A stretch of DNA of 64,000 nt, taken from Qipengyuania aquimaris. Its GTDB lineage: Bacteria; Pseudomonadota; Alphaproteobacteria; Sphingomonadales; Sphingomonadaceae. The stretch is taken from NCBI RefSeq assembly GCF_009827445.1, contig NZ_WTYI01000001.1, forward strand, positions 2,556,381 to 2,620,380, written 5' to 3'. Positions within the stretch are counted from its first letter, which is position 1, and each line of letters starts with the position of its first letter. This document shows positions 40,772-56,843 of this stretch, one piece after another. The translations under genes and the position numbers were made by a program. The notes under the pieces were generated by a model. The model was not told the DNA's origin. It made no database searches and saw only the letters and a list, made by a program, of their open reading frames with translations.

Positions 40772-42085
40772 CTAGACCGCTTCCAGTGCCTGTTCGAAGT
40801 CGGCAATCAGGTCGTCCGCATCCTCGATACCGATGGAAATGCGTACGAGATTGTCCGAAATGCCTAGTTCGGCACGGCGGCCCTCAGCAACCGAAAGATG
40901 CGTCATCGAGGCCGGGTGACTCGCCAGAGTCTCGGTCCCGCCAAGACTAACGGCGAGCTTGGCAATCTTCAGCGCGTCGAGGAAACGGAAACATTCCGCC
41001 TCGCCACCTTTCAGCAGCAGCGAGAAGGTGGAACCCGCGCCGAGGCAGTGCCGGTCGTAAATGTCCTGCTGGCGAGCATCCTTGATCATCCCGAGATAGC
41101 CGAGGCCTTCTACCTTCGGGTGCTTGGCAAGGAAATCGCACACCTTCTCGGCATTCTCGCCCGCCCGCTGCATCCGCAGTTCGACGGTTTCGAGGCTGCG
41201 GCAGAGCATCCACGCCGTGTTCGGATCGCAGATGCCGCCCATCGTGTTGCGCAGCATGCGGATGGCATCGATAAAACGCTTCTTGCCTGAGACGCTGCCG
41301 GCGACCAGATCGGAGTGGCCGCCGACATATTTCGTCAACGAGTAGACCACGAGGTCAGCACCGTGATCCAGCGGACGCTGCCACAGCGGACCGAGGAATG
41401 TATTGTCGATTGCGATCGAGCACTTGTCCGGATCGAAATGCGCATCGCGCGCTTCCCTAACCGCTTCGATGTCGACCAGTGCATTCGTCGGGTTGCCCGG
41501 GCTTTCGAGGTAAATCATAGGCACTTCGCCGCCCTGTTCCTCGGCCATGGCCTTGGCTTTAGTCATTACCTCGTCAATTTGCGCACGGTCGGCACCAGCC
41601 GGGAAATCGATGAACGTAACCCCATACTTTGCCATCGTCTTGGCAATGAAGCCCTCAGAAGCGGCATAAAGGGGACCCGAGTGGACAATTACGTCACCGG
41701 CCTTGCATGCTGCCAGCAGCAGCACGGCGATCGCGGTCATCCCGCTGGAGAAGCTGAGGGCTTCTTCGGCGCCGTCCCACACGGCGAGGCGATCTTCGAG
41801 GATTTCCTGATTGGGCGCGTTGAAGCGGGAATAGACCAGTCCATCCGCACCGCCCGGACGCTTGCCGGTGATGCCTTCGAAATGGCGCTTGCCGTCGGCC
41901 GCGCTCGGGAACGCAAAGGTCGAGGTAAGGAAAATCGGAGCCTTGAGGCTGCCTTCCGATAGGGTCGGGTCGAACCCGTGACCCATCATCAGCGTGCTGG
42001 GCTTGAGCGGGCGTCCGCCGACCTCGGGGATCTTGCGCTTTGGAGCCATGCGGGGGCTGACGGGATCGATATCGTTGTCGCTCAT
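40772..42085 (-). CDS. Cystathionine gamma-synthase family PLP enzyme
   Basis: 437 residues from the ATG at 42085; upstream codons belong to a structured leader. A long N-terminal extension precedes the Cys/Met-metabolism fold: SFSSGMTAIAVLLLA, IYLESPGNPTNALVDIEAV, the PLP Lys in VVYSLTKYVGGHSDLVAG, and SLGGTETLASHPASMTH. It catalyses gamma-replacement or elimination on a homoserine ester, homocysteine or methionine; which one cannot be read from sequence. 1-base spacing to the ATP-grasp gene. Confidence 0.9.
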   Translation of the reverse strand: MSDNDIDPVSPRMAPKRKIPEVGGRPLKPSTLMMGHGFDPTLSEGSLKAPIFLTSTFAFPSAADGKRHFEGITGKRPGGADGLVYSRFNAPNQEILEDRLAVWDGAEEALSFSSGMTAIAVLLLAACKAGDVIVHSGPLYAASEGFIAKTMAKYGVTFIDFPAGADRAQIDEVMTKAKAMAEEQGGEVPMIYLESPGNPTNALVDIEAVREARDAHFDPDKCSIAIDNTFLGPLWQRPLDHGADLVVYSLTKYVGGHSDLVAGSVSGKKRFIDAIRMLRNTMGGICDPNTAWMLCRSLETVELRMQRAGENAEKVCDFLAKHPKVEGLGYLGMIKDARQQDIYDRHCLGAGSTFSLLLKGGEAECFRFLDALKIAKLAVSLGGTETLASHPASMTHLSVAEGRRAELGISDNLVRISIGIEDADDLIADFEQALEAV

Positions 42086-42087
42086 AG

Positions 42088-42130
42088 GGGAGCATCCTTC
42101 CTGCAACGTCGCTCCCAGGAAGGCGGGAGC
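42088..42130 (-). promoter_or_regulatory. Structured leader of the trans-sulfuration gene
   Basis: On the minus strand, arms CCTTCCTG (42116-42123) and CAGGAAGG (42096-42103) pair over the AGGAAGG ribosome site. GGGAGC in the loop (42111-42116) can pair either with GCTCCC upstream (42125-42130) or with GCTCCC downstream (42088-42093), giving exclusive hairpin or pseudoknot forms. This is typical of a translation-controlling riboswitch. I cannot assign it to a known class. Confidence 0.5.
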
Positions 42131-42230
42131 TAAATTTGGGGTCAAGCGGCACCCGTTCCTAACCTCCGCAGGAACGCTTCTCCGCATGCCGTGGCAATGG
42201 GGCGTGGATTACGGAGCGTCAGGCCCCTTT

Positions 42231-43640
42231 TCAAGCGGCAAGCGAGGCCATTCCCCAAACCACGAATACGATCAGGAAAATGCCCACAAGATCGAGCAGG
42301 ATCCCGGCCTTTACCATGCGCTCGATCTTTATCCGCCCAGTGGCCCAAGCGATCGCATTGGGCCCAGTCCCGGCAGGCAGCATGAAGCCCCAGCTGGCGG
42401 CGAGCGCTGCGGGCATTGCGAGCAATACCGGGTCGGCGCCAAGGGCCACCACCAGGCTCGCCACGACAGGAATGATCCCGCTGGCCGTCGCCACGTTGCT
42501 TGCAAACTCGGTGATGAGGACAACCATCCCAACTATCGCCAGCGCCACCAGAACAAGAGGCCAGTTTTCCAGCGGTAGCAGTGCATTGCCGAGCCAGTCG
42601 GCAAGTCCGCTGGCCGACATTCCCGCAGCGAGGGCGAGACCACCTCCGAACATCATGATGACACCCCATGGAGCCCTGTCGGCTTCGTCCCATTTCAGCA
42701 TCGGTCGGCCCGTTCCGTCGGGAAGCAGGAACAGGAGCAGGCTCATGCCGATGGCGATCGTGCCATCGGTCAACGATCCTGCCGGCAGGAACGGCGCAAT
42801 CCAGCGCTGTCCCATCCAGAGCAGGAATGTCAGGATGATCAGGGGGACAAGCCGCCGCTCCGCGCTGGACCACGCGCTGTGTGTGTCGATCGATGCTCGT
42901 GCGGCCTGCGTATCGAAGGGGTGTTCGGCGACCCGCTGGACCCGGGCAATCAACCAAGCGGCAATCGGGATGCCGACGACTACCACGGGCAGGCCGTAGA
43001 ATGCCCAGTCTGCAAAGGTGATCCGTGTCCCGGTAAGCGTGTCGAGCAGCCCGACCGCAATGGCGTTCGTGGGGGATCCAACCAGCGTTCCCAGCCCGCC
43101 GATGCTGGCCGCGAATGCGATGCCCATGGGCAGGGCACCGGCCAGCCCTTCCTGTTCGCTATCGGCAAGACCTCCGCCGGCCAGCACTGCGACTGCCATC
43201 GGCATCATGATCAGGGCAGTCGACGTGTTGGAGATGAGCATTGAAAGAATCGCTGCCGTAATCATGAAAGCCAGCAAGACGCCTGTCTGGCTGCCAGTCC
43301 CGACCGCTCTCAGCAGAGCAAGCGCGAGGCGGCGATGGAGACCGGTCCGTTCGATCGCAAGGGCGATGAACGCACCGCCCAAGATCAGGAACAGGATGGG
43401 CGAATAGTAAGAACCGGCGGTCGCCTTCGCGTCCATCACGCCGGCGAAAGGGAGGACAAGGAAGGGCATCAAAGCGGTGGCGGTGAGGGGCATCGCCTCG
43501 GTCATCCACCATGCGGCCATGAGCACGACAAGGCCCGCGACGACGCCGGCCTCGCGGGACATGCCGGTAGGTAGCGGCGCGAAGATACCCGCCATCAGGC
43601 TCAATGCCCCGACGGTCAGCCCTATCTGTTTTGCGTTCAA
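42231..43640 (-). CDS. SLC13/DASS-family sodium-coupled anion transporter
   Basis: 469 residues, about eleven membrane segments. Both SNT-type motifs are present (MLISNTSTALIMMPMAV and FASNVATASGIIPVVASL), defining the sodium and carboxylate sites. Imports dicarboxylates or sulfate-like anions. The start is a TTG at 43640 with GGAGGG upstream; the nearest ATG is out of frame. Same strand as the trans-sulfuration gene, 145 bases away. Confidence 0.9.
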   Translation of the reverse strand: MNAKQIGLTVGALSLMAGIFAPLPTGMSREAGVVAGLVVLMAAWWMTEAMPLTATALMPFLVLPFAGVMDAKATAGSYYSPILFLILGGAFIALAIERTGLHRRLALALLRAVGTGSQTGVLLAFMITAAILSMLISNTSTALIMMPMAVAVLAGGGLADSEQEGLAGALPMGIAFAASIGGLGTLVGSPTNAIAVGLLDTLTGTRITFADWAFYGLPVVVVGIPIAAWLIARVQRVAEHPFDTQAARASIDTHSAWSSAERRLVPLIILTFLLWMGQRWIAPFLPAGSLTDGTIAIGMSLLLFLLPDGTGRPMLKWDEADRAPWGVIMMFGGGLALAAGMSASGLADWLGNALLPLENWPLVLVALAIVGMVVLITEFASNVATASGIIPVVASLVVALGADPVLLAMPAALAASWGFMLPAGTGPNAIAWATGRIKIERMVKAGILLDLVGIFLIVFVVWGMASLAA

Positions 43641-55996: not shown

Positions 55997-56087
55997 TGGC
56001 GGAGCAGGAGGGATTCGAACCCTCGATACGGGGTTACCGTATACACACTTTCCAGGCGTGCGCCTTCGACCACTCGGCCACTGCTCC
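55997..56087 (-). tRNA. tRNA-Ser (anticodon GGA)
   Basis: 91 bases including an encoded CCA. Acceptor arms GGAGCAG/CTGCTCC match, the anticodon loop reads CTGGAAA, the TpsiC arm has GGTTCGAATCC, and the long variable arm (GTATACGGTAACCCCGTATC) marks a class II serine tRNA. Reads UCC and UCU. Confidence 0.97.
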
Positions 56088-56753: not shown

Positions 56754-56843
56754 GGAGAGGTGGCAGAGAGGTCGAATGCGCCGCACTCGAAATGCGGTAT
56801 ACGGGCAACCGTATCGTGGGTTCGAATCCCACCCTCTCCGCCA
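56754..56843 (+). tRNA. tRNA-Ser (anticodon CGA)
   Basis: 90 bases with encoded CCA. Acceptor GGAGAGG/CCTCTCC, anticodon loop CTCGAAA, long variable arm (GTATACGGGCAACCGTATC) and GGTTCGAATCCC TpsiC arm. Reads UCG. Its 3' end faces the gene-free repeat region and the recombinase island; no second copy of the 3' end is visible at the far side of the island. Confidence 0.97.

Follow-up and report, generated by a model that had tools for sequence, protein, structure and literature searches.

A conserved two-hairpin leader RNA upstream of PRK07049 in Sphingomonadales and its probable role as a translational switch on the ribosome site

The leader described here lies on the minus strand of a 64,000-nucleotide stretch of the Qipengyuania aquimaris genome (2.66 Mb, a single contig), hereafter the window, whose numbering is used throughout. 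The gene that follows the leader (40772 to 42085, minus strand; start codon ATG at 42085-42083) encodes a PLP-dependent "cystathionine gamma-synthase family protein" (PRK07049/NF005455). Its product scores 666.9 bits against NF005455, for which the cut-off is 504, and carries a Pfam match to PF01053; Qipengyuania xiapuensis and Erythrobacter sp. SD-21 are among the nearest named relatives, with proteins of approximately 95% identity. The gene had been described from the sequence alone as a trans-sulfuration gene. Membership in the Cys/Met PLP family holds, but a standard role in that pathway is unsupported, given that three further genes of the same family occur in the genome and are best assigned as methionine gamma-lyase, O-succinylhomoserine sulfhydrylase (MetZ), and cystathionine beta-lyase. 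The YGC active-site motif, which is the defining rule for true methionine gamma-lyases (PMC11568061), is absent from the PRK07049 paralogue, where LYAAS stands in place of the LYGCT found in the genome's best-scoring methionine gamma-lyase; on this criterion, PRK07049 does not qualify as a methionine gamma-lyase. The two closest solved structures, 5ijg and 7swh, are named at the family level only.

Upstream of the leader, and outside the conserved element within it, lies a gene for a sodium:sulfate/dicarboxylate (DASS) symporter (42231 to 43640, minus strand; PF00939). The symporter gene was found at 55 of 75 element-bearing loci and was not found at the other 20, which indicates that the element tracks PRK07049 and not the transporter. 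A DASS symporter gene also precedes PRK07049 in several relatives that lack the element, and a functional link between the two genes is possible. A possible promoter, TTGAAA-N17-GTAATC, overlaps the stop of the transporter gene (42206 to 42234, minus strand); it was read from the sequence and is weak, and a scan of the leader for strict consensus promoters returned none. The similar arrangement TTGNN-N16-20-TANN is present in 49 of 105 relatives. Elsewhere in the window, two tRNA genes of opposite orientation are separated by fewer than 700 bases (56000-56087, minus; 56754-56840, plus).

The sequence-only reading had placed a riboswitch-like leader at 42086 to 42230, of which approximately 42096 to 42184 is conserved and the remainder up to 42230 falls outside the conserved part. 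Read along the minus strand, the conserved part begins with the purine-rich segment CGGAGAAG (42177 to 42184; consensus GGAGANG), in which most letters reach at least 90% conservation across 102 sequences and which comprises an internal loop and the 5' side of a short putative helix, P1, with the CC at 42148-42149 as its 3' side (partner 42182-42183). The first hairpin, HP1 (P2; 42154 to 42176, minus strand), has a 7-bp stem formed by CGUUCCU (42176-42170) and AGGAACG (42160-42154) around a nearly invariant 9-nt loop, GCGGAGGUU; this hairpin had been noticed in the single sequence, and its stem covaries across relatives. In the second hairpin, HP2 (P3; 42111 to 42130, minus strand), the 6-bp stem formed by GCUCCC (42130-42125) and GGGAGC (42116-42111), also supported by covariation, closes an 8-nt loop that hardly varies, GCCUUCCU. 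Within this loop is the anti-Shine-Dalgarno sequence CCUUCCU (42117 to 42123, minus strand), with one variable position in 102 diverse sequences, and the Shine-Dalgarno sequence AGGAAGG (42096 to 42102, minus strand) is its exact complement and could be its partner in either a pseudoknot or a stem. The ribosome site does lie inside an 8-bp stem, as had been claimed, formed by CCTTCCTG (42116-42123) with CAGGAAGG (42096-42103). The single-sequence fold includes this stem but is unremarkable (z = -1.2; 26 of 200 shuffles fold equally well), and the significance of the leader is thus drawn from the comparison across species, in which the stems covary and the loops are nearly invariant, and not from fold energy alone. 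No terminator was found between HP2 and PRK07049.

For this comparison, we used the upstream regions of PRK07049 orthologues from genomes of the source genome's family, and stem statistics were calculated over 15 proposed pairs in 102 diverse, non-redundant sequences. The proposed pairs were formed in 96.5% of cells, compared to 89.6% after shuffling, and 110 cells were compensatory compared to 26; none of 500 shuffles reached these values. Changes on both sides occurred in nine of the 15 pairs, and pairing fell to 44-56% when the partner was slid by one column. The HP1 stem pairs swap among U-A, C-G, G-C, and A-U, with variable positions paired in 99% of cases (73-88% when shuffled), and three HP2 pairs changed on both sides. 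We also tested 3403 column pairs against a purpose-written, tree-based null modeled on that of R-scape, and the five top-ranked were all proposed pairs. Two pairs in HP1 (23-42 and 25-39) and one in HP2 (82-97) reached E<=0.005, the HP2 pair (U-A 70, C-G 24, U-G 7, G-C 1) at E<=0.0025. The P1 pair 15-49 (E about 0.5) and the HP1 pair 24-40 ranked next and were non-significant, as were the remaining P1 and stem pairs against this null. The inner pair of P1 reads G-C 75, C-G 11, and A-U 3, but at this E value the helix is suggestive only. HP1 and HP2 were independently predicted by RNAalifold. The check for covariation in the leaders of orthologous genes, which had been proposed together with the initial description, was therefore positive for both stems.

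The letters that are fixed outside the stems are those of the HP1 loop, the HP2 loop, and the purine-rich GGAGANG 5' of HP1; linkers and flanks vary. This pattern bears on the idea that the inverted repeats act at the DNA level as transcription factor operator sites, which would suit a position upstream of a metabolic gene and which draws on a GGTTNC-N4-GNAACC palindrome that is frequent in the orthologues without the element. However, the leader shows the reverse of an operator pattern, given that the arms vary with compensation and the loops that would be the spacers are fixed, and we regard an operator as highly improbable. The leader is non-coding. A leader peptide, an upstream open reading frame, and an N-terminal extension were each rejected on mixed frames, in-frame stops, and the lack of any conserved short frame: HP2 occurs in all three frames relative to PRK07049, in-frame stops are present in 51 of 84 cases, and an upstream AUG is present in 45 of 105. 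In the source window itself, an open frame runs upstream to 42187.

The arrangement around the ribosome site is where the comparison altered the initial description most. GGGAGC had been proposed to pair with GCTCCC either upstream or downstream. The upstream partner (42125-42130) is the other arm of HP2, whereas the downstream copy (42088-42093) is specific to this genome and is replaced by unrelated sequence in relatives; the conserved alternative would be that of the HP2 loop CCUUCCU with AGGAAGG. Similarly, the hairpins had been called mutually exclusive, and the pairings may compete, but exclusion is not required, given that HP2 and the loop-Shine-Dalgarno pairing are compatible and together would make an H-type pseudoknot. 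The geometry would suit such a fold: HP2 has 6 bp, a single loop base would separate it from a second stem of 7 bp, and in this genome eight bases would cross HP2. The mean energies are -10.8 kcal/mol for HP2 and -12.7 kcal/mol for the Shine-Dalgarno hairpin, which is better by about 2 kcal/mol.

AGGAGG is the optimal match to 16S rRNA, and the use of AGGAAGG in its place suggests that the Shine-Dalgarno sequence is fitted to the HP2 loop. Of the 163 leaders with the element, 101 carry AGGAAGG, compared to 0 of 51 element-less orthologues, and the strength of loop-Shine-Dalgarno pairing differs between the two groups (Mann-Whitney p = 1.5e-20, an optimistic value for related sequences, in which common descent weakens the fit as statistics). 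About a quarter of the leaders have no AGGAAG near HP2, some of these having an inserted hairpin before a later site; in four leaders with such an insertion and a later ribosome site such as GGGAGG, the HP2 loop is still able to pair. The loop variants CCUCCC (two leaders) and CCUGCC (one leader) are not accompanied by changes in the partner. Given that the loops hardly vary, covariation cannot demonstrate either the loop-loop or the loop-Shine-Dalgarno pairing. We consider it likely that translation would be controlled through the HP2 loop.

The HP1 loop adds a second potential partner, in that its GGAGG could also pair with the HP2 loop, at -7.3 kcal/mol for the isolated duplex. This suggests that HP1 and the ribosome site may compete for the HP2 loop, and a kissing pairing between the two hairpin loops is possible. 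The HP1 loop also pairs well with the 16S anti-Shine-Dalgarno sequence (-10.7 kcal/mol), which the HP2 loop in turn resembles, and we considered that a small RNA acting in trans could target the leader, or that the leader could be a ligand-free ribosome standby or decoy site, where the GGAGG of HP1 would attract ribosomes and HP2 would modulate this recruitment. Such a role leaves the conserved stem-closing pairs, the other loop bases, and the internal loop unexplained, and we judge it to be improbable.

HP1 and HP2 were found together at 163 Sphingomonadales loci, 105 of them non-redundant. A covariance model returned a single match in the source genome at 7e-17, with nothing else better than 0.7, and with a broader second model 67 of 199 family genomes gave matches at E below 2e-5, with no further match before 1e-3. 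All 67 of these strong matches lie directly upstream of PRK07049; for 65, the measured distance to the protein match that follows is 23-88 nt, and the other two are at contig ends with a partial gene. A pattern scan of an 84,980-species collection gave at least 119 stretches, and the matches listed belong to Sphingomonadales or to bins classified no further than Alphaproteobacteria or Proteobacteria. The listed Sphingomonadales matches are mostly from Erythrobacteraceae, with a few from Novosphingobium, Parasphingopyxis, Sphingorhabdus, and Sphingomonas rhizophila, and PRK07049 is immediately downstream at all 80 loci that were fetched. No matches were found outside the source genome's family in a class sample (289 genomes) or a phylum sample (398 genomes), nor in the viral contigs scanned. 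Within the family, 159 genomes have the gene and 67 have the element; by these models, more than half of the orthologues thus lack it, so it represents a lineage-specific layer of control.

The covariance models gave only weak matches to second copies in the source genome or before other genes. Some weak matches are CCTGCGAAGGCAGG-type dispersed hairpin repeats, which the HP1 and HP2 loops slightly resemble, and the element may be derived from such repeats. In the element-less orthologues, the palindrome mentioned above often lies near the start codon (eight examples were noted), and several that carry it have no evident Shine-Dalgarno sequence; by its sequence, it looks like a transcription factor operator that would place the same gene under different control.

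Linkage to a single target gene family in one order would equally be expected if the hairpins were bound by an RNA-binding protein that opens or closes the ribosome site; the PLP enzyme could itself be this protein, in a feedback loop. The fixed GGAGG and CCUUCCU loops on two hairpins could serve as the protein's binding sites, and the source genome holds no second site. However, an internal loop, a fixed 9-nt loop, and a second hairpin capable of forming a pseudoknot exceed what most protein sites need, and Pfam shows no RNA-binding domain in the PRK07049 product. We view a protein-responsive leader as fairly unlikely.

The sequence-only reading could match no known class, and this agrees with our searches. 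Rfam 15, at gathering and permissive thresholds, returned nothing beyond chance matches and the window's tRNA genes, which lie away from the leader; the leader had no match up to E = 10, and 20 relatives had none up to E = 1 except for one chance IRES match. The same reading had raised control by SAM or SAH riboswitches, and a methionine-type gene whose ribosome site may be part of an H-type pseudoknot would be in keeping with a diverged member of that group. This was not borne out, given that the SAM-II (RF00521), SAM/SAH (RF01727), and SAH riboswitch (RF01057) covariance models did not match the leader. SAM-II was also not found in 99 family genomes, a search in which the control was silent as well. 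In addition, Leyn 2014 found neither SAM_alpha nor SAM-SAH in Sphingomonadales, and the only regulator that this study reported for methionine-type genes of the order is the SahR protein (PMC4239095). We therefore give a diverged SAM-family riboswitch very little credence. In the literature searched, neither the element sequence nor a leader of PRK07049 is described.

Covariation and gene linkage back the reading of the leader as structured and regulatory, with pairings that compete or form a pseudoknot around the ribosome site, and we conclude that the element is almost certainly a new family of structured cis-regulatory RNA in the 5' leaders of PRK07049 in Sphingomonadales. Our favored explanation, to which we assign a probability of roughly 0.6, is that it is a translational switch on the ribosome site, probably a riboswitch driven by a metabolite. 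Sensing is probably the task of HP1, with its GCGGAGGUU loop and the purine-rich internal loop that is conserved beside it. Translation would be off when the HP2 loop CCUUCCU sits on the Shine-Dalgarno AGGAAGG, either as an H-type pseudoknot built on HP2 or as the 8-bp hairpin replacing HP2. It would be on when the loop is kept away from the Shine-Dalgarno sequence, in HP2 alone or by the GGAGG of HP1, leaving the ribosome site free. By analogy with leaders of similar complexity, we lean toward a small molecule as the ligand; the obvious candidate is a metabolite from the pathway of the gene itself, and it would most likely decide between the two states. More tentatively, the element could be a new riboswitch class, so far seen only in Sphingomonadales, in which a sulfur-amino-acid metabolite shifts the anti-Shine-Dalgarno loop from the ribosome site to a kissing contact with the Shine-Dalgarno-like loop of HP1, or back. 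The element is compact, strongly conserved, and not represented in Rfam; it has a single clear target gene and a mechanism that suggests itself, and its ligand would reveal the function of a poorly understood enzyme.

Several known leaders offer points of comparison. The preQ1-II and guanidine-II leaders rely on a pseudoknot that involves the ribosome site or on a pair of hairpins with kissing loops, but they precede unrelated genes and have no Rfam match here. The SAM/SAH riboswitch is a small H-type pseudoknot in which a loop pairs with the Shine-Dalgarno sequence to control translation. Our element may share this pseudoknot geometry at the Shine-Dalgarno sequence with RF01727 but differs in its extra HP1 domain and lack of an Rfam match, and the SAM/SAH riboswitch has been reported only before metK in Rhodobacterales (PMC4239095). 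SAM-II (SAM_alpha, RF00521) is likewise an alphaproteobacterial leader before methionine-type genes and consists of one stem and a pseudoknot (Corbino 2005, PMC1273637), whereas the PRK07049 leader has two separate hairpins and one target gene family and is not matched by the SAM-II model. The betaproteobacterial metXZ element of Leyn 2014 is set apart by its description, given that it has a terminator hairpin with a U-tract and precedes metX and metZ, whereas the leader described here has no terminator between HP2 and the gene, its downstream gene scores as PRK07049, and MetZ is encoded by a separate gene in the genome. Nevertheless, the two are alike in being conserved leaders with alternative or pseudoknotted pairings, the metXZ element doing so ahead of genes for methionine biosynthesis.
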